Part shown: piece after piece, positions 1 through 23,843 of the stretch
How the letters are laid out: every line of letters begins with the position of its first letter
Numbering within the stretch: the stretch's first letter is position 1
Assembly: GCA_001304015.1 (NCBI GenBank)
Contig: LJUY01000043.1
Location: 1 to 23,843 of the forward strand
DNA: 23,843 nucleotides
Direction: 5' to 3'
DNA from: a candidate division Zixibacteria bacterium SM23_81
GTDB lineage: Bacteria > SM23-81
Made by a program: the position numbers and the translations under genes
Notes under the pieces: model-generated
The model's input: the letters and a program-made list of their open reading frames with translations, nothing else
What the model was told of the DNA's origin: nothing
Database searches by the model: none

Positions 1-1485
1 ACCGATCCTGATGTGGGTGATTCTGCTCTGTTGGTGGTGGATCTGGATTATAGTGATAATGCTGGAGGATCTTGGGCATCTATTGAAACGGGAGAATCCA
101 ACGACGGCGCTTATTTCTGGGATATCTCTGGTCTGTCAGATGGCACCAATTATCTGGTGCGCGTCATCGTTACCGATACCAGTGGTTTGTTTGACTCTGA
201 CACCTCCGATGCGATCTTTTCTATCGACAATCCTGACGATCCTACTGTAACTGTCACTTATCCCAATGGTGGAGAGACGTTGTCGGATTCTGTGATGGTC
301 ACCTGGACGGCTACCGATCCTGATGTGGGTGATTCTGCTCTGTTGGTGGTGGATCTGGATTATAGTGATAATGGTGGAGGATCCTGGGAATCCATCAATA
401 CTGGTGAGGTCAACGATGGTGTTTACTCATGGGACATTTCCGGTCTGTTAGACGGCTCCGGCTACCTCGTGCGCGTTACCGTCACCGATACCAGCGGTCT
501 TTTTGACTCAGACACCTCCGATGCGGTCTTTTCTATCGACAATCCTGACGATCCCACTGTGACTGTCACTTATCCCAATGGTGGAGAGACGTTATCGGAT
601 TCTGTGATGGTCACCTGGTTGGCTACCGATCCCGATGTGGGTGATTCGGCTCTGTTGGTGGTGGACCTGGATTATAGTGATAATGCTGGAGGATCTTGGA
701 CATCTATTGAAACGGGAGAATCCAACGACGGCGCTTATTTCTGGGATATCTCCGGTCTGTCAGACGGCTCCGACTATCTGGTGCGCGTCATCGTTACCGA
801 CACCACGGGACGGTCAGACTTAGATGTCTCTGACGGCACTTTTTCCGTCGATAATCCCGATGCTCCCACTGTGAGTGTCACTTATCCCAATGGTGGAGAG
901 ACGTTGTCGGATTCTGTGATGGTCACCTGGACGGCTACCGATCCCGATGTGGGTGATTCGGCTCTGTTGGTGGTGGATCTGGATTATAGTGATAATGCTG
1001 GAGGATCCTGGGAATCCATCAATACTGGTGAGGTCAACGATGGTGTTTACTCATGGGATATCTCCGGTCTGTCAGATGGCTCCGGCTACCTCCTGCGCGT
1101 TACCGTCACCGATACCAGCGGTCTTTTTGACTCTGACACCTCCGATGCGATCTTTACCATCGATAATCCCGATGCGCCTAGCGTGACTGTCATTTACCCC
1201 AATGGTGCGGAGACGTTGTCAGACTCAGCGGTGATCACCTGGTTGGCTACCGATCCTGATGTGGGTGATTCGGCTCTGTTGGTGGTGGATCTGGATTACA
1301 GTGATAATGGTGGAGGCTCTTGGATGCCCATCAGCACGGGTGAATCTAACGATGGCTCCCATTTTTGGGATGTCTCTGAGCTGAGTGATGGCACCAATTA
1401 TCTGGTGCGCGTTACCGTTACTGATACAACTGGTCTTTTCGATGTCGACACCTCCGATGCGGTCTTCATAATCGATAATCCGGAG
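1..1485 (+). repeat. Tandem 312-bp (104-aa) coding repeats, one partial plus four full copies
   Basis: The same sequence beginning ACCGATCC recurs at 1, 313, 625, 937 and 1249, an exact 312-bp period with no indels. In domain phase the units are 1-237 (partial), 238-549, 550-861, 862-1173 and 1174-1485. Long stretches are identical or nearly identical at the nucleotide level, including synonymous sites, which points to recent duplication or gene conversion. Units 1 and 3 share one variant of the middle segment (IETGESNDGAYFWD) and units 2 and 4 share another (INTGEVNDGVYSWD), giving an A-B-A-B order. Unit 5 is more diverged. Confidence 0.95.
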
Positions 1486-1842
1486 CCTCCGGCAGCCATT
1501 TCTGATCTGACGGTTGTGCTGACGGATGGTTCTATCCGTTTAAGCTGGACAGCGATCACCGAGGACACTTTGGGTATGCCCATTGTAGTGGAGTACTACA
1601 ATGTATACCGCAACGTGGACCCGTATTTCTCCTCCGGCCCAGCCGACTCCATCGGCAGCACTACTGGAACGTTCTATCTTGATCCAACTCCCGCGCTGAA
1701 AGACACGAGCGTCAATCACTACTACTTGGTGCAAGCCGTTTCTTTGCAGAGGAGGAAATCTGCAGATTCCAACCGTGTGGGAGAGTTCGATAGAAATATG
1801 ACGGACATCGAGCCTTCGGGGCCTCCTAAGAATAGACGATAG
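1..1842 (+). CDS. Secreted Ig-like tandem-repeat protein with C-terminal Fn3 domain (5' end outside window)
   Basis: The reading frame is open from base 1 to a TAG at 1840-1842, so the true start lies upstream and at least 613 residues are visible. Residues 1 to about 495 are copies of a 104-aa beta-sandwich repeat carrying YPNGGETL, TDPDVGDSALLVVDLDYSDN and a GSW...TGE.NDG...WD segment. This resembles the Ig-like modules of the Kre9/KNH type (PF10342) seen in bacterial surface proteins; that family match is from memory. Residues about 496-600 form a fibronectin type III-like domain (SDLTVVL, LSWTAITED, YYNVYR, VNHYYLVQAV) ending in VGEFD and a short basic tail. The Fn3 domain and tail are clearly homologous to the end of the protein encoded at 9163-14103. 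A structural or adhesive role outside the cell is inferred; no catalytic domain is visible in this part. Confidence 0.9.
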   Translation, partial: TDPDVGDSALLVVDLDYSDNAGGSWASIETGESNDGAYFWDISGLSDGTNYLVRVIVTDTSGLFDSDTSDAIFSIDNPDDPTVTVTYPNGGETLSDSVMVTWTATDPDVGDSALLVVDLDYSDNGGGSWESINTGEVNDGVYSWDISGLLDGSGYLVRVTVTDTSGLFDSDTSDAVFSIDNPDDPTVTVTYPNGGETLSDSVMVTWLATDPDVGDSALLVVDLDYSDNAGGSWTSIETGESNDGAYFWDISGLSDGSDYLVRVIVTDTTGRSDLDVSDGTFSVDNPDAPTVSVTYPNGGETLSDSVMVTWTATDPDVGDSALLVVDLDYSDNAGGSWESINTGEVNDGVYSWDISGLSDGSGYLLRVTVTDTSGLFDSDTSDAIFTIDNPDAPSVTVIYPNGAETLSDSAVITWLATDPDVGDSALLVVDLDYSDNGGGSWMPISTGESNDGSHFWDVSELSDGTNYLVRVTVTDTTGLFDVDTSDAVFIIDNPEPPAAISDLTVVLTDGSIRLSWTAITEDTLGMPIVVEYYNVYRNVDPYFSSGPADSIGSTTGTFYLDPTPALKDTSVNHYYLVQAVSLQRRKSADSNRVGEFDRNMTDIEPSGPPKNRR

Positions 1843-2391: not shown

Positions 2392-3243
2392 ATGTCTACC
2401 CGTCGTATAGGGACGGTTGGAGTCATATGGGGGATTATTTTATTTTGCCTGCTTTGCTTTGGCCTCACCTGCAGCAGGAGCGACAAGGAATCTGTGGAGG
2501 ACGAGAGCAAGTTGGCTGATACCACTAAATCCCAGGTGGTGCAAGCATACGGAAAGCTTCCCCTTTCCTTCACAGAGAACCGGGGACAGATGGCCGAGCC
2601 AGTGCGTTTCTATATCCGTGGCCCCAGGGGCACCGTTTATTATACCCCGGAAGAGGTGGTTTACGATGTTGTGGAGAAAACAGCGGAGCCAAAGAGGACA
2701 AAGCTGCCCGAGGAGAGGGATGAGATTGTGTCCTCCGACACGACCTTTAGGCGCAAGGGAGTTGTTGTCCGGATGAGGTTTTTGGGCGCCAATTCCTCCG
2801 TCGTCCTGGAAGGGATCGATGAGTTGGAGGGCAAAGTAAACATCTTCCGGGGAAAAGACCCCTCTCAATGGAAGACGGGGATTCGTACCTTTAGGGGAAT
2901 CATCTATCGGGATCTCTACCCTGGAGTTGATCTCATGTACCATGGCCAGGACGGCCGCCTGACACACCGACTGACCATAGAGCCCGAAGGAGAGGTGAGG
3001 GACGTCGTATTTCGATACGAGGGAGCGGATCAAATCGAGGTGGATGCGTCGGGCAATCTGCGCATCAAAACGGCTCTGGGGACCATCACCGAGCCGAAAC
3101 CTTATCTCTATCAAGAGAAGGCTGGAAAAAAGATAAAAGTGGAGGGAGGGTATCGGACGCTAGGCAGGGATGCAGTGGGCTTTTCGGCGAAGAAGTACCA
3201 GGGCAATCTACCCCTCATCATCTCCATGGGAGTAGACCATTAA
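2392..3243 (+). CDS. Exported DUF7948-type protein (N-terminal half of an SBBP-propeller protein)
   Basis: 283 aa. ATG at 2392 is preceded by a perfect AGGAGGT (2380-2386) with 5-nt spacing. Residues about 8-27 are a hydrophobic signal segment followed by LTC-SRSD; Cys27 could be a lipidation site, but the lipobox is weak. From about residue 55 the protein carries the features of the domain that normally precedes SBBP beta-propeller repeats (DUF7948 in recent Pfam, from memory): LSFTENRGQ, VRFYIRGPRGTVYYTPEEVVYD, YRDLYPGVDLMYHG and EPKPYLYQE. Such proteins usually run on from this point ('NLPLIID...VYSTFLGG') into the propeller. Here the frame stops at VDH-TAA, and the propeller is encoded by a separate gene 3 bp downstream. 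Function is unknown; it is probably a surface or periplasmic partner of the next product. Confidence 0.85.
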   Translation: MSTRRIGTVGVIWGIILFCLLCFGLTCSRSDKESVEDESKLADTTKSQVVQAYGKLPLSFTENRGQMAEPVRFYIRGPRGTVYYTPEEVVYDVVEKTAEPKRTKLPEERDEIVSSDTTFRRKGVVVRMRFLGANSSVVLEGIDELEGKVNIFRGKDPSQWKTGIRTFRGIIYRDLYPGVDLMYHGQDGRLTHRLTIEPEGEVRDVVFRYEGADQIEVDASGNLRIKTALGTITEPKPYLYQEKAGKKIKVEGGYRTLGRDAVGFSAKKYQGNLPLIISMGVDH

Positions 3244-3246
3244 ACC

Positions 3247-5076
3247 ATGGCAATTTACAAGATAAAATCGTTTCAAACACAGCTCTTTGGGCCCTGGACA
3301 GTTCACCGAAACAGTCTGGATGCCGTGGTGAGTGCGTTTTTGTTCTTGAGCTTATGGTTCTTGTGCTATGACATCTCATGGGCCATTGAATCGGACCTGG
3401 TCTGGAGCTCCTTTCTAGGAGGGAGCTTCAAGGATTTTGGGTATGATGTTGCCGTAGATAATTCGGGCGTCTACGTGACGGGGCATACAGAGTCTGCGGA
3501 TTTCCCAACAACAGCTGGGGCTTTCGACGAGACCTTAAATGATAACGGCGACGCCTTCGCGACTAAGTTGAATCCAATGGGCAGCAATATTGTGTACTCC
3601 ACTTTTTTGGGCGGAGGTGGTTGGGATGAGGGATACGGCATTGCTCTTGACGGTGGGGGCGGCGTTTACGTAACCGGGTGTACTCGATCGGTAGATTTTC
3701 CGATTACCTCTGGGGCTCTAGATACAATCCTTGGCGGCCCTTCAGACGTCTTCGTGGTTAAGTTGGAAGCCATGGGAGGGGCTCTTTTTTTTTCAACTCT
3801 CCTGGGTGGAAGTGGAGATGAGGTGGGGTTTCGGATCGTCGCGCAGCGTTCCGGGAAGGTCTATGTGACAGGAATTACCGAATCGGTGGATTTTCCCGGA
3901 ACTGAAGGAGAGATTGTTACGAATCATCGCGGCGGCAAAGACGTCTTCGTCACTCGGTTCAACACCTTAGGCAACGCTCTGGATTACGCCACCCTTCTGG
4001 GAGGAGTGGAAAACGAATTTGGCTGGGGCATCGATGTGGACGGCTCTGGTAGCGCCTATGTGACAGGGTACACAGAGTCAGCGGATTTTCCCACCACAAT
4101 AAATTCTTTCGACGCTACTTTCAACGGCTTCTCAGACGTCTTTATCGCTCGGTTGAACCCCCAGGGCAGTCTATTGGAATATTCCACCTTTTTAGGAGGC
4201 AGCTTTCGGGACGCCGCCCGGAGCGTCGTCGTGGATGGCTCTGGCAGCGCTTACATAACCGGTTACACCAATTCATTCGATTTTCCCACCACACCAGAAG
4301 CATTCGACACGGCGCAAGATTTCTCCAACTACAATGCCTTTTTGGCCAAACTTACCCCCGATGGAAGCGATCTGGTCTATTCGACCTTTTTGGAAGGAGA
4401 GGAAAAAGAAAGCGGTTACGGTATTACCGTGGACGATTCCAGCAACGCCTGGGTCGTTGGCTTTACAGAGTCCCCATTTTTTCCTACAACGCCTGGGGCC
4501 TTTGACGAATCACATAACGGTGGGAGAGATGTTTTTGTGGCTAGGCTCAACGGGAAGGGCAGCAGCCTTGACTACAGCACCTTTTTGGGGGGTATGGGAG
4601 ACGATTATGGCTGGGACATCTTTCTGCATGGTGTGGACGAAGCTTACGTAACGGGGTATACCCTTTCAGCGGATTTTCCCACCACAGCCGGGGTGTTTGA
4701 TGAAACGCACAACCACAGTGAAGATGCATTTGTGACCCGACTCTGCCTGAGAGGGCTAGTTCCTGTGGATCCAACCGGTCCTGTAGAAGCGTTGCCAGTG
4801 ATCTATATGTTGCACCAGAACTATCCTAACCCCTTCAACGCCACCACAGAAATCTGCTACGCGATTCCCAAGGATGGTCACGTAGTGCTGAGTATCTTCA
4901 ACTCTCTGGGACAAAAGGTGCGGACTCTAGTGGACTCTGAGCAAAGGGCCGGGGAGCATGTGATAGTCTGGAATGGGCGAGACAATATGGATCAAGATGT
5001 GGCCAGCGGATTGTATTTCTGCCGGATGAGAACGGGTAAGTTCACCCAGACTGTCAAGATGATGCTGGTCAAATAA
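3247..5076 (+). CDS. Secreted SBBP seven-repeat beta-propeller with type IX-like C-terminal sorting domain
   Basis: 609 aa. The N-terminus has a long polar stretch and then a hydrophobic segment (about residues 27-45, AFLFLSLWFLCYDISWA) that looks like its own signal peptide. Residues about 49-505 contain seven repeats of about 64 aa with YSTFLGG, GYG...VD, VYVTG.TES.DFPTT and DVFV.RLNP motifs. These are classic SBBP repeats (PF06739), and the number suits a seven-bladed propeller. The last 90 residues (from QNYPNPFN, through FNSLGQKVRTL and ASGLYFCRM, to KMMLVK) are a FlgD-Ig/Por-secretion type C-terminal domain used for type IX export and surface anchoring in Bacteroidota relatives. No strong ribosome-binding site precedes the ATG (GGGAG at 3229-3233 is 13 bp away), so translation is probably coupled to the upstream gene, 3 bp before. 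Confidence 0.9.
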   Translation: MAIYKIKSFQTQLFGPWTVHRNSLDAVVSAFLFLSLWFLCYDISWAIESDLVWSSFLGGSFKDFGYDVAVDNSGVYVTGHTESADFPTTAGAFDETLNDNGDAFATKLNPMGSNIVYSTFLGGGGWDEGYGIALDGGGGVYVTGCTRSVDFPITSGALDTILGGPSDVFVVKLEAMGGALFFSTLLGGSGDEVGFRIVAQRSGKVYVTGITESVDFPGTEGEIVTNHRGGKDVFVTRFNTLGNALDYATLLGGVENEFGWGIDVDGSGSAYVTGYTESADFPTTINSFDATFNGFSDVFIARLNPQGSLLEYSTFLGGSFRDAARSVVVDGSGSAYITGYTNSFDFPTTPEAFDTAQDFSNYNAFLAKLTPDGSDLVYSTFLEGEEKESGYGITVDDSSNAWVVGFTESPFFPTTPGAFDESHNGGRDVFVARLNGKGSSLDYSTFLGGMGDDYGWDIFLHGVDEAYVTGYTLSADFPTTAGVFDETHNHSEDAFVTRLCLRGLVPVDPTGPVEALPVIYMLHQNYPNPFNATTEICYAIPKDGHVVLSIFNSLGQKVRTLVDSEQRAGEHVIVWNGRDNMDQDVASGLYFCRMRTGKFTQTVKMMLVK

Positions 5077-9162: not shown

Positions 9163-12100
9163 GTGCACAGAAAGCTTATCCTGACGACCGTCTGGGTCCT
9201 TATTTTGGTTGCGGCTCGGAGCGTAGTTGCTGAGCGTATTACTTTCACCATGACCGCCGGCCCGTACCAGCTTCAAGAGGAGGACGGATTTCAAGTGGTT
9301 AAACTGGAGGGCTTCGATCGCTTGCAGATACCTGGAAAACCCATGGTGCCGGCCAAACAATTTCATTTCGCCCTGCCCCCAGGAGCCCAGGTGTCCGATG
9401 TGAAGATCATGGGTGTTGAAAAGGTGTCTCTTGAGGGTGCCTACCGCATCGAGCCGGCACCGTGTGCCATCCCCTTGGGGCTTGACAAAGAGGCATTGCA
9501 AAAGAGCAGAGGCGACTGGCAGCGCAGCTATGATGCCACCTACCTCTCTGATGCGCCCTTTCCAGGGAAAGTCGGAGAGAACCTGGGTGTGAGCGGGCTG
9601 CGCAAGTACACGATCCTACGGGTCGCTTTCTACCCCTTCTCCTATCAGCCTCAGTCTGGGCGGCTTACCTTCTGCGCGCGTGCGACCGTTGAAGTGGACT
9701 TTCAGCTGCCTCCTGTGGGAAGCGAACCGGACCAGCGGGCGCAGCTGTCTTTGATGGATCGGGCAGGAGAGGAGCGCGCTCAGGAGCTTGTGGACAATTT
9801 CCGTCAAGCCAGCGGATGGTATGCCCCTCAGGAAGGAGCGCGGTCCTCCAAGTCCACCTACGACTACGTGATCATCACCAGCTCCGGCCTGCAGAGCGCC
9901 GTCTCAGATCTGGTGGACTGGAAGGAAGAAATTGGCCACACCGTCAATGTGGTCACCACCAGCTGGATCTCCAACAACTATTCCGGCTGGGATCTGGTGG
10001 AGGAGATCCGCAACTTCCTCATCGACAAACATCTCGATTGGGGCATCGAGTATGTCCTCTTGGCGGGCGACCTCGACGTCATCCCCATGCGTAACTGTTA
10101 CCCTGACGGTCACTCCAGCTATACTCCCACCGATTACTATTACGCCGACCTGACTGGAAACTGGGACTCTGATGGCGACGGTTACTACGGTGAACCCAGC
10201 CAGGATGCTGTCGACATGCTGGCCGATGTTTACGTGGGCCGCATTCCCTGGAGCAGCTCCACGACCCTCTCGAATATCTGCGACAAGCTCATCGCCACCG
10301 AAAGCGACACCGGCAGCTGGAAGAACAACGCCCTGCTGTTGGGTGCCTTCACCAATTTCGCCAACCAGGATCACTCTGGATGGCCGGCTACCGATGGAGC
10401 CTGGTTGGCAGAGAACTTACTCTCCGACGTTCTCACCGGCTGGAGCGCCACAACGATGTACGAGAAAGCGGGACTGGCTACCTCTGCTTTTTCCTGCGAC
10501 TATCCGCTCACTCGCAGCAACGTGGTCAGCCAGTGGTCGGCCAACGATTACGGAATTGTCACCTGGGCGGCGCATGGGTCATACGATGCCGCATGGAGAA
10601 TACATTGGAGCGGGGATGATGGCGATGGCGCACCCGAATCCAATGAGATCAGCTGGAACAGCTTCTTTCAGAATTCCGACGTCTCCTCCCTGGACGACGA
10701 TCATCCCGCCATCGTCTTTTGCTCTTCGTGCGAGAATGGGCATCCAGAATACTCGCACCTGGCCCGGGAGTTGATCAAAAACGGAGCCGCCGGCGTGGCG
10801 GCTGCCACCCGTGTTTCCTGGGGCATCGTGGGTTGGACAGATTCAAATGATGGCGGGATCGAGTCGTTAGCCTACTATTTCGATGACTACCTGGTCAACC
10901 GTGACCAACCGCCGGGGGACGCATTGTACGACTCAAAATATTACTGCTGGACCCATATGTGGGAGAACTACCAGAACATGTACGACTTCTGTCTTTACGG
11001 AGATCCGGCCTTGAACAGGGAGGGAATAGCCGCCACTCCGCAAATTCTGGCCGTAAATCCGGAACCAAACGGGTACATCGCCTCGGTGGGCTGCGACCTT
11101 TCGGCCAGGTTCGATCGGTTTATGGATCCGACCACCTTTAATGACACCACTTTCGTGGTCTACGGAGTCCAGAGCGGCCGGCATCGGGGTCTCATCGGCT
11201 ATGATCCAGATAGTTTTTCAGTGACTCTCGATCCCAATGGCGATTTTCTACCGGGGGAGATGCTCACGGCCATAGTGACCTGTCACGTTCTCTCGGCAGG
11301 GGGCATCGCGGTTAGCGGAGGCCACGCATGGTTCTTCCAGGCCGAAGCGCCTGGGGGGAGCGGAATCTTCGGGTCAGACAGCTCTTTTGGCTCGGGTACG
11401 GACCCGAGTGGAGTCTGCTGTGGCGATTTTGATGGGGATGGCCATGTCGACCTGGCCGCCGTTAATCTGAGTCTAGATAACCTCTCAATCTGGACCAATG
11501 ATGGCCAGGGTACCTTCTCCTTGGATGGCACCTATGGGGTCGGGGCCGATCCCAGAGGTGTGGCAGCGGCCGATCTAGATGGCGACGGGTATCCAGATCT
11601 CGTGGTGGCTGACTCCAGTGCCCATCAGATATCGGTTTTGCTTAACAACGGCGATGGCTCCTTTGCCGATGACCAATTGTATGGAACCGGCCAGTCGCCC
11701 AGGTCAGTTTTCATCGCAGATCTGGATGGGGATGGGTATCTAGACGTAGCTGCGGCCAACAGCGGTTCCGGAAACCTCTCAGTGCTGATCAACGACGGCG
11801 AAGGCGCCTTCGCTCCTGCTGTCAATTACGGGACGGGCAGCGTCCCGCGATCTGTTTCCGGTGGGGATTTGAATGGCGATGGACGCGTGGATCTGGTGAC
11901 CGCCAACTATAGCTCCGATAACATCTCGGTGCTGCTCAACGAAGGAGGTGGTCTCTTTGGCGCGGACGTGACCTACGCCGTGGGCGATGGTCCCCACTGT
12001 ATCTGGACAGGTGACCTGGACGCTGACGGCGTTCCTGATCTGGCTGTGGCCAACAAGAACTCCGACAGCGTCACAGTGCTCATCAACGAAGGAGCAGGAG

Positions 12101-14103
12101 CGTTCTCTATGGAGAGCAACTATGCCGTGGGCGATGAACCTCTTTTCATCTGCGGGGGCGATCTGGACGGCGATGAGGACGGCGACTTGATGGTAGCTAG
12201 CCGCGAAGGCAACTCGTTATGCATCCTTTTAAATGGGGGCGACGGCAGCTTTGAGGGCGTCACGAACTATGGAGTGGGCGTCGATCCCGTTGCTTTAGGC
12301 ACAGGCGATCTTGATGGAGACGGAGACCTGGATGTGGCCTCGGCCAACGCGGGCTCCAACGACATCTCCATTCTCTTTAACATCGATGCACTGAATGTCA
12401 TAACCACCTCTCCCAGCAGCCATGAGGCGGACGTGTCGGTGGCCACCGAGATTGTCGCGCACCTCAGCAGCGCCGTGGACAGCACCACATTGAGCGATTC
12501 CGCCTTCTTCGTCTATGGTTTGCAGACGGGGCGGCATTGGGGTCAGGTGCAAATGGGATCCGATGACTCCAGCGTGGTCTTCCATCCCGACCTTCCGTTC
12601 TCGGGCGGGGAAGCCGTGGCCACCATACTGACCCCCGAGCTGAAGAGCGACATCGGCGCTCCCATGAAAAAGGGCCATTGGTGGTCTTTCTTCGCAGCCG
12701 CCGAGATGGCCGGTGAGTTCCATGTGGACTCCATCTATGCGGCAGGCGATGGGCCCCGAGACATCGCCGCCGCCGACCTGAACGGCGATGGCCACATCGA
12801 CTTGGTGACGGCCAACTATCTAATCAGCTCTGTGGGGGTGTTTATCAACCAGACGGATGGAATCTTCCATCTGGACAGCACTTACAGCGTTGGCTATTGG
12901 CCTGCTTGTGTATGTGCCTTGGACGTTGAAGGCGATGGGGACTTTGATCTTGCCTCAGGAAATGTCTACGCTAGCACAGTTACCGTCTTGCGTAACAATG
13001 GAGGTGCCTTTTCCATAGATTCTACTTACACTGTTGGGAGCAGTCCCTATAGCATATGTGCCGTCGATCTGGACGGCGACGGCGATCTAGATCTGGTTGT
13101 GGGCCACGCACTCGGCGACAGCGTTTCTGTACTGCTGAACGAGGGCGATGGAAGCTACGCGCAAGCAATTTTTTACGCTGCGGGGAAAACACCTTACGGA
13201 GTGTGCACTGGTGATGTGGATGAAGACGGAGATGCGGATTTGCTGGTGGCTAATTACGAGGACAAAACGCTGTCGATTCTGCCCAACAAGGGCAATGCCC
13301 TCTTCGGTAAGCGACGGGTCTATCCCCTGAGCGGTAGTCCTCGCTCATTGGGTGTTGGCGACCTGAATGGGGATGGGCATCTGGATGTGGCCCTGGGGAG
13401 CTATATAGAAGGCGAGGTCTCGGTGTTGTTTAATGAGGGAGATGGGAGCTTCGAACCGGACACCGCCTATGTCGTGGCTGGGAAACCCTCTGCGGTCTTT
13501 ATGGGTGATCTGGATGGCGATGGCGATCTGGACCTGGCCCTCTCTAGGGCCACCGGGAATGACGTGTTGGTGATGAAGAACGACGGCCAGGGGGTCTTTT
13601 CAGTTCTGCAGACTTATGCGACGGGAGAAAATGTGGTGGGCCTATGCGCAGGCGATCTGGATGAAGACGGTGATCTGGACCTGGCCGCGGCCAGTTACAA
13701 TGACGATATGCTGGCTGTGCTGCTGAACTCCTCGGGCGGCTGGCTTCCAGCAGCGGTCTCGGATCTGACAGCCACCTTGGCGAGCAGCGCCGTACATTTG
13801 AATTGGACGGCCGTCACCGAAGATGAGGTGGGCAACCCCATTGTCGTAGACCACTACACCATCTACCGCCAGACCAGTCCCTACTTCGTGCCCAGTGCGG
13901 AGGACTCCATCGGGGGCACCGCTGAGAATTTTTATGATGATACCGGTGCAGAGTTGAAGAATCCCAGCATCAACCATTACTATGTGGTCAAAGCTGTCGA
14001 TTCCACGGGAGGCAAGTCTCTGGCATCCGATGTGGTGGGGGAGTTTGATAAAACCCTTCAGGAAGGAGCTAAGAGACAAGACAGCAAGGGTTTTAAAGAG
14101 TAG
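9163..14103 (+). CDS. Secreted gingipain-type cysteine peptidase (C25) with two FG-GAP propellers and Fn3 tail
   Basis: About 1646 aa. GTG 9163 follows GAGAGG; TTG 9145 behind GAGGG (9132-9136) is an equal alternative adding MKKRGT. A signal peptide ends near SVVA. Order: C25 propeptide-like region (about 20-230; IPGKPMVPAKQ), C25 catalytic domain (about 233-622; YDYVIITSS, YVLLAGDLDVIP, DVYVGRIP), Ig-like Big_5 domain (about 624-726), seven FG-GAP/VCBS repeats (about 738-1076), a second Big_5 domain, seven more repeats (about 1188-1526), and an Fn3 domain ending VGEFDKTL. The probable catalytic His471 is in WAAHGS (codon 10573) and the nucleophile Cys523 in CSSCENG (codon 10729), matching the HG and AC.NG motifs of gingipains. 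No canonical type IX C-terminal domain is present; the Fn3 end matches the protein at 1-1842. Probably a surface or secreted protease; its specificity is unknown. Confidence 0.9.
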   Translation: MHRKLILTTVWVLILVAARSVVAERITFTMTAGPYQLQEEDGFQVVKLEGFDRLQIPGKPMVPAKQFHFALPPGAQVSDVKIMGVEKVSLEGAYRIEPAPCAIPLGLDKEALQKSRGDWQRSYDATYLSDAPFPGKVGENLGVSGLRKYTILRVAFYPFSYQPQSGRLTFCARATVEVDFQLPPVGSEPDQRAQLSLMDRAGEERAQELVDNFRQASGWYAPQEGARSSKSTYDYVIITSSGLQSAVSDLVDWKEEIGHTVNVVTTSWISNNYSGWDLVEEIRNFLIDKHLDWGIEYVLLAGDLDVIPMRNCYPDGHSSYTPTDYYYADLTGNWDSDGDGYYGEPSQDAVDMLADVYVGRIPWSSSTTLSNICDKLIATESDTGSWKNNALLLGAFTNFANQDHSGWPATDGAWLAENLLSDVLTGWSATTMYEKAGLATSAFSCDYPLTRSNVVSQWSANDYGIVTWAAHGSYDAAWRIHWSGDDGDGAPESNEISWNSFFQNSDVSSLDDDHPAIVFCSSCENGHPEYSHLARELIKNGAAGVAAATRVSWGIVGWTDSNDGGIESLAYYFDDYLVNRDQPPGDALYDSKYYCWTHMWENYQNMYDFCLYGDPALNREGIAATPQILAVNPEPNGYIASVGCDLSARFDRFMDPTTFNDTTFVVYGVQSGRHRGLIGYDPDSFSVTLDPNGDFLPGEMLTAIVTCHVLSAGGIAVSGGHAWFFQAEAPGGSGIFGSDSSFGSGTDPSGVCCGDFDGDGHVDLAAVNLSLDNLSIWTNDGQGTFSLDGTYGVGADPRGVAAADLDGDGYPDLVVADSSAHQISVLLNNGDGSFADDQLYGTGQSPRSVFIADLDGDGYLDVAAANSGSGNLSVLINDGEGAFAPAVNYGTGSVPRSVSGGDLNGDGRVDLVTANYSSDNISVLLNEGGGLFGADVTYAVGDGPHCIWTGDLDADGVPDLAVANKNSDSVTVLINEGAGAFSMESNYAVGDEPLFICGGDLDGDEDGDLMVASREGNSLCILLNGGDGSFEGVTNYGVGVDPVALGTGDLDGDGDLDVASANAGSNDISILFNIDALNVITTSPSSHEADVSVATEIVAHLSSAVDSTTLSDSAFFVYGLQTGRHWGQVQMGSDDSSVVFHPDLPFSGGEAVATILTPELKSDIGAPMKKGHWWSFFAAAEMAGEFHVDSIYAAGDGPRDIAAADLNGDGHIDLVTANYLISSVGVFINQTDGIFHLDSTYSVGYWPACVCALDVEGDGDFDLASGNVYASTVTVLRNNGGAFSIDSTYTVGSSPYSICAVDLDGDGDLDLVVGHALGDSVSVLLNEGDGSYAQAIFYAAGKTPYGVCTGDVDEDGDADLLVANYEDKTLSILPNKGNALFGKRRVYPLSGSPRSLGVGDLNGDGHLDVALGSYIEGEVSVLFNEGDGSFEPDTAYVVAGKPSAVFMGDLDGDGDLDLALSRATGNDVLVMKNDGQGVFSVLQTYATGENVVGLCAGDLDEDGDLDLAAASYNDDMLAVLLNSSGGWLPAAVSDLTATLASSAVHLNWTAVTEDEVGNPIVVDHYTIYRQTSPYFVPSAEDSIGGTAENFYDDTGAELKNPSINHYYVVKAVDSTGGKSLASDVVGEFDKTLQEGAKRQDSKGFKE
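11374..12390 (+). repeat. First array of seven FG-GAP/VCBS coding repeats
   Basis: Seven units of about 49 aa, each with a G..P segment, a calcium-binding D.DGDG..D loop, an LAVAN-type strand and SVL.N.GDG.F. Degenerate loops occur in unit 5 (DLDADGVPD) and unit 6 (DLDGDEDGD). The count fits one closed seven-bladed propeller. Confidence 0.88.
12724..13740 (+). repeat. Second array of seven FG-GAP/VCBS coding repeats
   Basis: Seven units of about 48 aa with D.DGDG.D loops, separated from the first array by a Big_5-like Ig domain (12388-12700). Unit 2 has the variant loop DVEGDGDFD and unit 4 DVDEDGDAD. The Ig-plus-propeller pair at 11032-12390 is therefore duplicated as a block at 12388-13740. 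Confidence 0.87.
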
Positions 14104-18888: not shown

Positions 18889-21800
18889 ATGAGGGCGAGC
18901 GTTTTCGTGGTGGTGCTGTCGATGGTTGTTCTGTCGACCGCAGCGCTGGCCGCTGGGCCCGAATTAAATTTGGGCCAAGCTGATGAGTTCGCATCGACAG
19001 GCATGCGGACAGAAGTACCCGGACTGATGAGTTTTCAGGGTACTTTGACCGATGAGCATGGAGTGGTCATGGACACGACGGTTTCCATGGTCTTTTCAAT
19101 TTACACCGATTCTACTGGGGGGACTCTGGTATGGGGTGAGACGCAAGCAGCGGTGGTGGTGAGTCGTGGGGTGTTCGACGTTCTTTTGGGAAGAGTGAAT
19201 AGCATCTCAGACACGGTGTTCAAGGATTCTGAGCGCTGGTTGGGAATACAGGTGGGAGGTGATCCTGAGTTGCAGCCTCGGCAGCGGATAGCTGCGGTGG
19301 GGTATGCCTTTCAGTCTGGAAGTGATGGTGATTGGACGATAGCAGGGGTTGATATGTCTTCCGCGGTGTCGGGTAATGTGGGCATAGGCACGACAAGTCC
19401 ACAGTCGAAGTTACACGTCAACGGGGCTATCCGGCTGGGGGGTGGATCTGCCAAGTATCAGATTCAGGAAGTAACCCCATATAGTGGGGGTGGTTGGAAA
19501 AGTTACATCGATTATGGTGGTATAGGGATCGGCAGCAATGACGGCACCAATCGGCAGATGTTCATGTTTACTGATGGTGCCGGCTCCAACAATATCTTTA
19601 CCGCAGCGACCAGTGAGAACGGGGGCAGCTCTTGGGAGGCGGATTTTGTGATTCAGCAGGATGGCAAAGTTGGTGTGGGGACAGGGAGTCCGGCACAGAG
19701 GCTGGAGGTGGTGGGTACCGCCCAGATGACTGGATTTAAGTTGCCTCCGGGAGCCGCTGTTGGTCATGTTTTGACCTCAGATGCCAGCGGTGTGGGTACC
19801 TGGCAAGAGCCCGCGGCGGTATCCGATGGTGACTGGACGATAGTTGGGGATGACCTGTATTCCAATGTGGCCGATCAGGTGAATATCATATCCACGACGA
19901 AGAAAACTGAAGGCGCACAGAGACGTGAAGGCCCAAGGAGAGAAAAGAGAGATATCACCAAAGGGAAAGCGGGCAATGCGCTATATGTGGAAGGTGATAA
20001 TAAGACAGTCATCCAAAGTTACTTAGCTGGGACCGATGCAGCCGCAGATGGAAGGGCGGCGCTCTGGGGTATCTATGATCCATGGTGGGCGGGGAATGCG
20101 GGTGCCGGGTACGCTGCTTTTGAGACGAATAGTGGTATTAGTGGCTTGAATCTTTATGGCGATCCGTATACCTTTGGTGTGGCCGGTTATAGTGAGAATT
20201 TGAGTGTTAGATCGGGAGGTGTTTTGGGCGCAGATATGACTGCAACCTATTGGGGTGCATTGGGATATTATGATGAGAACCTTAACAACTGGGGTGTTTA
20301 TACCCCCAGCAATGCTTACTTTGGCGGGGCTGTGGGCATCGGGGTGGCCAGTCCGGCAGACATGCTTCATGTAAACGGCAACATTCGTTTTAATTCTGGG
20401 TTTGGCATTAATTTTGTCGATTACAACACTAGGATTTACGAGAATCTAGATGATTTGTGCCTTGAGGCCGACAACGACATCTATATCAAGCCGGACAATG
20501 ACATCTTCATGGATATGATCACCCTCGTTGTGGACGGCTCGGCAAATAGAGTCGGTATCGGAACATACACTCCGGCGGAGATGCTGGATGTGATTGGCAC
20601 TGCCCAGGTGACCGGTTTTAAAATGCCCACGGGGGCAGCCGCCGGCCGTCTGTTGATCTCAGACGCCTCGGGCCAGGCAAGCTGGCAGGATCAAACAACA
20701 ATCTCCGATAGCGATTGGACCGTTTCGGGCATCAACATCTATTCTGCTGTCACAGGGAATGTAGGCATCGGGACAACAACCCCGGATTATAAACTTGAGG
20801 TTGCCGGCAATGCCGGATTTAACGACTACCTGTATCATACCGGCGACACAGACACTTACCTCTACTTATCAGATGATCAGTTCGATGTGTATACAGGTAA
20901 TGTCAGAATGCTGACAGCCGATGAGGCCACGCAGGACGTTGTTGTCATCAATGAGGGCGGTGTAGACGTTGATTTTAGGGTGAAATCGGACAACGATGCG
21001 AATGCCTTGTTTGTTGAAGGTAACACTGGAAGGGTGGGCATAGGGACGGCGAGTCCAGCACGAAGACTGGATGTGAGTGCGACGAGCGGTATTGGAATTT
21101 ATGGAGAAAATAACGATGCGACTTATTCCGCTCTCTATGCTACTAATAATGGCACTGGACCAGCCGCGAGATTCCAAAGTGGCGAGGTTATCGTGATGGA
21201 TAACCTTGGCATAGGGACAGAGATCCCAGCATATAAGCTTGATGTATCAAACACTGCAGGTACTGCTGCGCATTTCGTTACATCGGAAAACAGCAGCTCC
21301 GCGTATGGGTGCTATGCTGTGGCAGCTCCGGGAGACATCACCGATGCGAAAGGTGTATATGCAGTCTGTGACCCTGCTGATTACTACGGCTACGGAGTTT
21401 ATGGCAGTGGCGGGTATCAGGGTGTGTATGGTGCATGTCTCCATGCGGCGACAGGCCATACAGCATATGGCGTCTATGGCTATGCCTCCGGGGGGACTAC
21501 CAATTATGGCGTTTACTATTCGGGGGGTCTAGGAGGTTCTGGTTCTAAAAGTGCCATAGTTCGGACCGAGGAGGGACCAAAGGCTGTGTATTGCCAGGAG
21601 TCTCCGGAAAATTGGTTCGAGGACTTCGGCACAGGTGCCATTTACGATGGCCGAGCTCAGGTTCAATTGGCCTCTGATTTTCGCCAGACGGTGACCATCG
21701 ACGAAAAGGACCCTATGAAGGTCTTCATCACACCGAACAATCGAATCGGCGGCGAATGGTGGGTGGAAAAGAGTACTACTGGATTCACTTTAGTAGCTCC

Positions 21801-21990
21801 AGAAGCACCCGCTGGCGCTCAGTTCGACTACCGCGTCGTGGCCAAGCGGAGAGGGTTTGAAGATCTGCGACTCGAGTCGACACCCGATGCCTACGCTGAT
21901 CGTTACCTCTATCCCGATATGAACGATGTGCCCCTTGAGCACCGAGATTCATGGTTAAAATCTGCTCCAGAAGAGCAGCGGACCCAATAA
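18889..21990 (+). CDS. Secreted fibre/adhesin-like protein with head domain and GIGTxSP repeats
   Basis: 1033 aa. ATG 18889 follows CAGGAGGT. The signal peptide MRASVFVVVLSMVVLSTAALA is cleaved near ALA-AG. Residues about 43-145 form a beta-rich head (MSFQGTLTDEHG, MVFSIYTDSTGGTLVWGETQ, GVFDVLLGRVNSI, LGIQVGGDPELQPRQRIAAVGYAF) common at the N-terminus of large secreted proteins of this type. Next come six or seven irregular repeats marked by VGIGT.SP...L.V, the pattern seen in phage tail fibres and bacterial stalk proteins. The last 170 residues (SAIVRTEEGPKAVYC, ESPENWFEDFGTG, VFITPNNRIGGEWWVEK, DYRVVAKRRGFEDLRLE) are a conserved terminal domain found on such proteins. Residues about 336-362 are an unusual lysine/arginine-rich insert. 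Probably extracellular and structural; no enzyme motif was seen. Confidence 0.88.
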   Translation: MRASVFVVVLSMVVLSTAALAAGPELNLGQADEFASTGMRTEVPGLMSFQGTLTDEHGVVMDTTVSMVFSIYTDSTGGTLVWGETQAAVVVSRGVFDVLLGRVNSISDTVFKDSERWLGIQVGGDPELQPRQRIAAVGYAFQSGSDGDWTIAGVDMSSAVSGNVGIGTTSPQSKLHVNGAIRLGGGSAKYQIQEVTPYSGGGWKSYIDYGGIGIGSNDGTNRQMFMFTDGAGSNNIFTAATSENGGSSWEADFVIQQDGKVGVGTGSPAQRLEVVGTAQMTGFKLPPGAAVGHVLTSDASGVGTWQEPAAVSDGDWTIVGDDLYSNVADQVNIISTTKKTEGAQRREGPRREKRDITKGKAGNALYVEGDNKTVIQSYLAGTDAAADGRAALWGIYDPWWAGNAGAGYAAFETNSGISGLNLYGDPYTFGVAGYSENLSVRSGGVLGADMTATYWGALGYYDENLNNWGVYTPSNAYFGGAVGIGVASPADMLHVNGNIRFNSGFGINFVDYNTRIYENLDDLCLEADNDIYIKPDNDIFMDMITLVVDGSANRVGIGTYTPAEMLDVIGTAQVTGFKMPTGAAAGRLLISDASGQASWQDQTTISDSDWTVSGINIYSAVTGNVGIGTTTPDYKLEVAGNAGFNDYLYHTGDTDTYLYLSDDQFDVYTGNVRMLTADEATQDVVVINEGGVDVDFRVKSDNDANALFVEGNTGRVGIGTASPARRLDVSATSGIGIYGENNDATYSALYATNNGTGPAARFQSGEVIVMDNLGIGTEIPAYKLDVSNTAGTAAHFVTSENSSSAYGCYAVAAPGDITDAKGVYAVCDPADYYGYGVYGSGGYQGVYGACLHAATGHTAYGVYGYASGGTTNYGVYYSGGLGGSGSKSAIVRTEEGPKAVYCQESPENWFEDFGTGAIYDGRAQVQLASDFRQTVTIDEKDPMKVFITPNNRIGGEWWVEKSTTGFTLVAPEAPAGAQFDYRVVAKRRGFEDLRLESTPDAYADRYLYPDMNDVPLEHRDSWLKSAPEEQRTQ

Positions 21991-22524: not shown

Positions 22525-23843
22525 ATGAGGGCGAGGGTTTTCGTGGTGGTGCTGTCGATGATTGTTTTGTCGACCGCAGCACTGGCCGATGGGCCTGGAT
22601 CGGCGGTGGGCCAGGCCGACAGGTATGATTTGGCGCGGGCCAATGAGTCCGCATCAAAAAGCGTTCGGAAAGAAGTGCCTGGGGTGATGAGCTTTCAGGG
22701 CACTTTGACCGATGAGCACGGGGTGGCCATGGACACGACGGTTTCCATGGCCTTTTCAATTTACAGCGATTCTACCGGGGGGAATCTGGTCTGGACCGAG
22801 ACCCAGCCGGTAGTGGTGGTGAGCAGTGGTCTTTTCAACGTCTTATTGGGCAGGATCAACAGTATCCCGGACACGGTGTTCAAAGAACCCTCGCGCTGGC
22901 TAGGGGTTAAAGTTGGCGGGGACCCCGAAATGACCTCTCGGCAGCGGCTTGCGGCTGTGGGGTATGCTTTTTGGGCTGCTGAGGCCGATACAGCGGGGTA
23001 TGCTCGTACTGCTGTGGCTGCTGGTGATAGTGATTGGACGATTTCTGGGGATGATCTCTATTGTGCCCAACCAGGTAAGGTGGGCATCGGGACGACAAGT
23101 CCGCAGTCGAAATTGCATGTTGATGGAGCCATACGGCTGGGCAGTGGATCAGCCAAGTATCAGATTCAGGAGGTGACTCCCTATAGTGGTGGTGGTTGGA
23201 AGGATTACATCGCTTTTGGTGGTATTGGGATTGGCAGCAATGACGGCACCAATCGACAGATGTTCATGTTTGCTGATGGTGCCGGCTCCAACAATATCTT
23301 CACAGCAGCGACCAGTGAGAACGGGGGCAGTACCTGGGAGGCAGATTTTGTGATTCAGCAGGATGGCAAGGTGGGCATCGGGACGACTTCGCCGACTGCG
23401 CCGCTGACCATACAGACCATCAATGGAACGGATATCGCGTTTACCAGTACAGGAAATAACGCAGATATCATGGCGCCTGGTACATTAAAAATCGGTACCA
23501 CAGGCGGTGGCTACTGGCTGCACTTTTTGACAGATGATGGGTACAAGATGAGCATCACCGGCGCAGGCGATGTGGGTATTGGCACCACCAGCCCTGCCGC
23601 GAAGCTGGATGTTGGCGGAGATATCAATGCCGATTCCCTCTACAAAATTGGAGGAAATACGGTGCTCTCTGTAACGGACCTGGATAATCTTTTCGTGGGT
23701 GACGGTGCTGGGACGTACAATACGGGGAATCATGGGACGTTTGTGGGAGATCAGGCTGGGCACAATAACCAGGGTTCTCAGAACACATTCTTAGGGAAAG
23801 CCGCAGGTCTTCTCAACGCCGATGGTTTCCAGAACACGTTCGT
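22525..23843 (+). CDS. Second fibre/adhesin-like protein, paralogue of the 18889 gene (3' end outside window)
   Basis: ATG 22525 follows CAGGAGGT. The frame is open for 439 complete codons to the window end. The signal peptide MRARVFVVVLSMIVLSTAALA and the head domain (MSFQGTLTDEHGVAMDTT ... GDPEMTSRQRLAAVGYAF) nearly repeat those of the first fibre gene. A block around 23081-23380 (VGIGTTSPQSKLHVDGAIRL, QIQEVTPYSGGGW, NIFTAATSENGGS, FVIQQDGKVGIGT) is also almost identical. After that the sequence diverges (SPTAPLTIQTINGT). The last visible part, FVGDGAGTYNTGNHGTFVGD...QNTFLGKAAGLLN, is the start of the TFLG.AG-type repeats typical of stalk proteins. Compared with the first gene it has an extra AAEADTAGYARTAVAAGD segment after the head. 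It has its own promoter and is probably a separate transcript. Confidence 0.9.
   Translation, partial: MRARVFVVVLSMIVLSTAALADGPGSAVGQADRYDLARANESASKSVRKEVPGVMSFQGTLTDEHGVAMDTTVSMAFSIYSDSTGGNLVWTETQPVVVVSSGLFNVLLGRINSIPDTVFKEPSRWLGVKVGGDPEMTSRQRLAAVGYAFWAAEADTAGYARTAVAAGDSDWTISGDDLYCAQPGKVGIGTTSPQSKLHVDGAIRLGSGSAKYQIQEVTPYSGGGWKDYIAFGGIGIGSNDGTNRQMFMFADGAGSNNIFTAATSENGGSTWEADFVIQQDGKVGIGTTSPTAPLTIQTINGTDIAFTSTGNNADIMAPGTLKIGTTGGGYWLHFLTDDGYKMSITGAGDVGIGTTSPAAKLDVGGDINADSLYKIGGNTVLSVTDLDNLFVGDGAGTYNTGNHGTFVGDQAGHNNQGSQNTFLGKAAGLLNADGFQNTF

Follow-up and report, generated by a model that had tools for sequence, protein, structure and literature searches.

The 23,843-nucleotide stretch of DNA analysed here (the window; contig C51 of a 3.07-Mb, 92.6% complete genome of Ca. 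Zixiibacteriota) encodes an Ig-repeat protein and a C25 peptidase that end alike, and the question raised by this locus is whether their common C-terminus is a sorting or anchoring signal, as a first-pass annotation of the sequence had suggested. BLASTP comparison of the two proteins aligned residues 497-602 of the one with 1529-1634 of the other (49% identity over 106 aa, E=6e-28) without gaps through the invariant G-E-F-D motif, while all other matches between them had E>1, in agreement with the earlier description of a homologous terminal module on otherwise unrelated proteins (Table 1). The charged tails of 14-17 residues described at that time measure 16 and 17 residues past the motif, but are atypically long, as most family members have 7-9. 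It also proved correct that the protein encoded from position 3247 carries a tail of the type IX secretion system (T9SS; TIGR04183 cut-off, 23 bits) and that neither GEFD protein does. The signal peptide of the Ig-repeat protein is out of reach because the gene is open at its 5' end at the contig start. The closest copies of the module outside the source genome belong to relatives named Candidatus Zixiibacteriota. Elsewhere in the window, the neighbouring genes at 18889-21990 and 22525-23843 encode N-termini that closely resemble each other, together with VGIGTTSP repeats, as is typical of tail-fibre-like repeat proteins; the former ends without a GEFD module and the latter continues beyond the window.

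Table 1. Position of the two GEFD modules, their carrier genes and a T9SS-tailed contrast case in the window.
Feature	Position	Strand	Evidence
Big_7/Ig-repeat protein bearing the module; 5' end cut by contig start	1..1842	+	domain search
GEFD module (Fn3-type domain and C-terminal tail) at the end of the Ig-repeat protein	1489..1839	+	AF2 pLDDT 90.6
GEFD motif codons, module residues 98-101	1780..1791	+	invariant in 31-row cross-phylum alignment
16-residue charged tail RNMTDIEPSGPPKNRR, then stop at 1840-1842	1792..1839	+	AF2 pLDDT 57-75
T9SS type A tail on the SBBP propeller protein 3247-5076 (contrast case)	4822..5064	+	TIGR04183 35.4 bits
C25 peptidase with FG-GAP repeats, carrying the second module copy	9163..14103	+	Peptidase_C25 E=7e-52, FG-GAP_3
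Likely signal peptide VHRKLILTTVWVLILVAARSVVA, GTG start	9163..9231	+	judged by eye
GEFD module of the C25 peptidase	13747..14100	+	E=3e-30
GEFD motif codons, peptidase copy	14038..14049	+	sequence

We then searched the source genome for further copies. A single copy of the module gave 43 matches at E<=0.01 and a 22-row profile gave 50, and removal of ordinary Fn3 matches left 45 copies with the GEFD motif, Fn3 modules ending in the pattern SN.VGEFDR.L....K, with K as the final residue in 24. The generic Fn3 matches were not accepted as family members; they end at model position ~96 without GEFD and lie internally or ahead of a T9SS tail. A stop codon follows within 39 residues of GEFD in 43 of the 45 copies (7-9 residues in 33/45), the two exceptions being adjacent genes on contig C91 in which a terminal domain of ~190 residues succeeds the module. 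Each of 43 out of 43 proteins has a single module, with no tandem copies. When 22 members were scanned against Pfam and NCBIfam, no model covered the module beyond generic fn3 (PF00041), which matched 11 of them at E<=1. Apart from these copies, two short broken ones were noted at C53:9904-10056 and C87:2216-2380 (G000), one with in-frame TGA and TAG codons, and are probable gene remnants.

The N-terminal parts of the carriers are unrelated to one another. They comprise C25 peptidases, subtilases, an alpha-amylase, an N-acetylmuramoyl-L-alanine amidase, SBBP propellers, Omp28-type selenoproteins, lamin-tail proteins and short 190-residue proteins, some of which were identified by eye. By a strict heuristic, signal peptides were present in 28/36 GEFD carriers and 20/27 T9SS-tail proteins, as compared with 28/82 other long ORFs, many of the latter being spurious. 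Most misses can be traced to non-ATG starts, selenocysteine codons or truncation: several have clear signal peptides at GTG or TTG starts, and two are selenoproteins with a signal peptide upstream of the TGA. The profile search that the first-pass annotation had proposed thus returned copies at the extreme C-terminus of signal-peptide proteins, rather than mostly internal or cytoplasmic matches. The genomes analysed are draft MAGs, in which signal peptides were called by heuristics and GEFD status by profile and pattern.

Two groups of carriers deserve separate mention. Three Omp28-related proteins on C53 (L310; TGA at 4528-4530 and 3138-3140) and C32 (L296; TGA at 3175-3177) of G000 have an in-frame TGA just before FDC/GAC, which probably encodes selenocysteine in a UxxC motif; one of the three matches NF045500 (Omp28_seleno), and GEFD is the ending of two of them, a T9SS tail that of the third. 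In addition, short proteins of ~190-260 aa, many per genome, consist only of a signal peptide, a stretch of ~45 aa (SVIGSAGGQASSTNF..GFWYQ or SVIAGGGARMTGG) and the GEFD module, and are found on C10, C23, C29, C72 and C85 of the source genome and at many Fermentibacterial and Eisenbacterial loci (for example L240, L249 and L262).

The module is also found far outside its host phylum. A scan for SN[RQ]VGEFD in one genome per species detected 51 loci, spread over Zixiibacteriota, Fermentibacteria, Eisenbacteria and Chloroflexota (Anaerolineae and Caldilineae), which rules out a repeat private to Zixiibacteriota, and GEFD itself is invariant across these four phyla. At the 49 sites that were read, a stop follows within 26 residues in 38, one terminal domain of ~175-193 residues in 8, and a longer or internal arrangement in 3. 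Whole-genome searches, which count in some ordinary Fn3 domains, gave 12-30 copies in five Chloroflexota, 81 in a Fermentibacteria genome and 90 in an Eisenbacteria genome, and in four of these genomes all 70 complete frames whose match reaches the end of the tail stop at most 30 residues on. The Anaerolineae tail always reads GEFDFAL.PG plus 0-2 residues or a close variant, the Chloroflexota form being GEFDFALTPG-stop. A few copies have long C-terminal extensions (the C91 pair, L177, L188 and L222), of which L222, whose frame is open in the stretch analysed, runs at least 384 residues past the module and is a true exception. The spread between genomes is all-or-none: of the 336 genomes sampled, four reach 23 or more copies (23 being the scoring cap), five contain a single one and the others none, and among 201 Chloroflexota full-length tail matches occurred in the centre genome only.

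Two further C-terminal arrangements came to light alongside these. In Zixiibacteriota and Chloroflexota, a second architecture joins Fn3-GEFDY to one terminal domain of ~175-193 aa (FNLIAVPF...; L149, L152, L158, L143-L145, L147, L148 and the source C91 locus, L085), and the L085 copy had no Pfam match above cut-off. Ends resembling YLP[LI][VI]x[KR] were seen on 10/547 Chloroflexota ORFs, where ~2 are expected, and on 0/201 in Zixiibacteriota loci, never together with GEFD (for example L160, L181, L380, L398 and L275); this is possibly another Chloroflexota C-terminal signal.

The source genome encodes 96 T9SS tails matching TIGR04183, and no protein in it bears both such a tail and a GEFD module. 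Paralogues that match over nearly their full length bear one or the other: an amylase pair encoded by adjacent genes on C46 (64% identity over 738 aa in the parts before the tails), subtilases on C11 and C44 (72% over 450 aa), amidases encoded by adjacent genes on C42 (44% over 567 aa), Omp28 selenoproteins on C53 and C32 (46-51% over ~215 aa) and SBBP propellers, where the T9SS-tailed protein 3247 of the window pairs with the GEFD-bearing C11:34134 (47% over 479 aa). The T9SS partners score 31-42 bits against TIGR04183, and the alignments of these pairs extend up to, or near, the start of both tails. Because the homology of the paralogues reaches both tails and no protein has both, the GEFD module and the T9SS tail are alternatives at one position; and since enzymes that are almost identical carry either it or an established secretion tag, the GEFD domain resembles a not yet described address label by which proteins may be moved or attached outside the cell. 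Neutral recombination at the 3' end is another way in which paralogues could have come by different tails.

Modelled with AF2, the window copy and a Chloroflexota copy (pLDDT 87.2 for the latter) are Fn3 sandwiches in which the last (G) strand has two residues only and GEFD itself forms a turn or short helix, with the terminal residues of the Chloroflexota model falling to pLDDT 65. Foldseek and sequence profiles place the Fn3 domains of ChiA1 and PelI/Pel3 as the nearest folds, with PelI and Pel3 among the top structural matches. Such a plain fold is what one would expect if the module were an ordinary accessory Fn3, a lineage-expanded cap or binding domain for carbohydrate, protein or matrix that happens to stand last, GEFD merely closing its last strand. 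Fn3 domains are common as accessory domains without a sorting role, Pfam fn3 recognises roughly half of the members, and in the phylum's sister family Fn3 domains of the same subtype lack GEFD and are followed directly by a T9SS tail; moreover, in a tree calculated without the tails, GEFD and non-GEFD cores are not cleanly separated. On this explanation, though, internal and tandem copies are expected, yet tandem copies are absent and internal GEFD is rare. Furthermore, the module replaces a secretion tail at the same junction on near-identical paralogues, and its constant distance to the stop and all-or-none spread are typical of sorting systems. We consider an ordinary accessory domain unlikely, if not quite as unlikely as the possibility that in diderm hosts (Zixiibacteriota, Fermentibacteria and Eisenbacteria) it belongs to the T9SS as one more kind of C-terminal domain (CTD), delivered to SprA via a PorV-family shuttle, with the Chloroflexota form being ancestral or differently used.

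In favour of such a CTD, the source genome encodes SprA, a PorU-like C25 protein adjoining two PorV genes on C79 and 24 PorV-family proteins, and the swaps with type A tails involve paralogues that are 44-72% identical. A terminal K or R, seen in 28/45 Zixiibacteriota modules and 29/29 type A tails of the source genome as against 30/159 of its other ORFs, and in 0/30 Chloroflexota modules, adds to the likeness, as type A tails depend on lysines of motif E (PMC10202324). Type B and C tails show that sequence-unrelated CTDs exist. The K/R resemblance is confounded by phylogeny, and among Fermentibacterial and Eisenbacterial tails P or E is a frequent last residue. Neither TIGR04183 nor PF18962 matched any of 22 members at E<=1, and no T9SS tail model of NCBIfam matched them (type C was not separately compared). 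GEFD tails are missing from the sister family (f2), although it possesses a T9SS. SprA and PorV are present in the GEFD-bearing Zixiibacteriota, Fermentibacteria and Eisenbacteria. In the five GEFD-rich Chloroflexota, SprA, TIGR04183 tails and the PorV family are all absent, and it is there that the module, equally C-terminal and numerous, takes its strictest C-terminal form. The module is thus not specific to T9SS bacteria, and because T9SS-free Chloroflexota have the same module, the T9SS cannot be the common machinery; together with the lack of model matches, this rejects a T9SS tail in disguise as a general answer.

Several more specific candidates were set aside. A signal of the sortase or exosortase type does not fit, given that there is no transmembrane helix and that the 5-20 residues after GEFD are mostly polar. 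Nor was a special PorV paralogue apparent in GEFD hosts, the counts of 24 and 22 in the GEFD family versus 17 and 9 in the sister family not being decisive. C25 peptidases are found in 5/5 GEFD-rich and 5/29 other Chloroflexota (Fisher p=9e-4), an enrichment that is only a lead because some GEFD carriers are C25 peptidases themselves and similar GEFD-less C25 proteins occur in a GEFD-poor genome; a PorU-like C25 peptidase was rejected as the specific partner on these grounds. We note that in GEFD-rich Chloroflexota C25 genes form tandem pairs, one with and one without a GEFD tail (C68:3327 and C68:6190 in G063; C162:7411 and C162:10066 in G064), C25 being rare in the other Chloroflexota sampled. 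In the set of papers searched there was no use of VGEFD or GEFDF in the sense of a tail and no paper linking Zixibacteria to type IX secretion.

What is observed, then, is a single terminal Fn3-type beta-sandwich with an invariant G-E-F-D and a short free C-terminus; tens of exported proteins unrelated to one another bear it, and on close paralogues it and the T9SS type A tail are interchangeable. The best reading of these sequences is a module that may be functionally interchangeable with T9SS tails while being built on an Fn3 fold, and we see about an even chance that it serves Sec-exported proteins as a hitherto undescribed domain for C-terminal targeting or attachment. The proposal of an alternative anchoring or export signal accordingly gains strong support from the C-terminal restriction and the tail swaps as far as sorting or anchoring is concerned, while the actual directing of export or anchoring is only inferred. 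Shared descent of a terminal exon-like module could by itself preserve position and spacing, and the few copies with long C-terminal extensions also speak against such a role.

If the module is a targeting domain, it would fold after Sec export, and its GEFD turn and exposed C-terminus would be bound by a putative dedicated envelope receptor or translocon, which would bring the cargo to the outside of the cell and hold it there, as PorV and PorU do with T9SS tails. That some machinery reads the module and exports or attaches its carriers is a proposition in which we have moderate confidence. In Chloroflexota the same process would necessarily operate without a T9SS, and in diderm hosts it would offer a second destination for the same enzyme beside the T9SS one. 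The more specific idea of a dedicated, T9SS-independent export or surface-attachment system, common to monoderm Chloroflexota and diderm FCB-group phyla, that recognises the folded Fn3-GEFD domain through a receptor or transpeptidase yet to be discovered, perhaps one of the C25 peptidase kind, we regard as doubtful. C-terminal tags have revealed whole secretion and anchoring systems before, as PEP-CTERM and the T9SS tail did, and the GEFD tag, found in no fewer than four phyla with tens of carriers in a genome, has neither a name nor a model in Pfam and NCBIfam. It allows one to list, for uncultured lineages, the proteins predicted to be secreted or to lie at the surface; the swap pairs form a ready experimental set and the phyletic pattern a guide to the machinery.

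Several known systems invite comparison with the module. Like GEFD, the T9SS type A tail (TIGR04183/PF18962) is a beta-sandwich of ~70-100 aa at the extreme C-terminus, is borne in each genome by tens of signal-peptide proteins that are otherwise unrelated, including paralogues of the same enzymes, and in Zixiibacteriota frequently ends in K or R. The GEFD module differs in its Fn3 fold, its invariant GEFD, the lack of a model match and its presence in T9SS-less genomes. The type B (gliding_CTERM) and type C (ChiA, cl41395) tails illustrate how sequence-unrelated CTDs can feed one translocon by different shuttles and to different destinations (PMC10202324, PMC12618676), but, unlike GEFD, are known from T9SS bacteria only. 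Fibronectin type III domains (PF00041; for example that of chitinase A1, 1k85) have the same fold, whereas ordinary ones stand inside proteins and in tandem and do not end in GEFD. That an Fn3 domain can act as an export signal has a precedent in PelI and Pel3, where it is an established determinant of T2SS secretion that acts via flexible exposed segments (PMC7949064). In contrast to GEFD, this domain is N-terminal, forms a composite signal with the catalytic domain and serves a proteobacterial T2SS, rather than being a terminal tag shared by many proteins. Moreover, Chloroflexota are thought to lack an outer membrane, which makes a T2SS unlikely as the common mechanism. Finally, LPXTG, PEP-CTERM and GlyGly-CTERM signals require a transmembrane helix and a basic end, whereas the GEFD tail has no hydrophobic segment; what it does have in common with them is an all-or-none spread between genomes, many unrelated carriers and a strictly C-terminal position.
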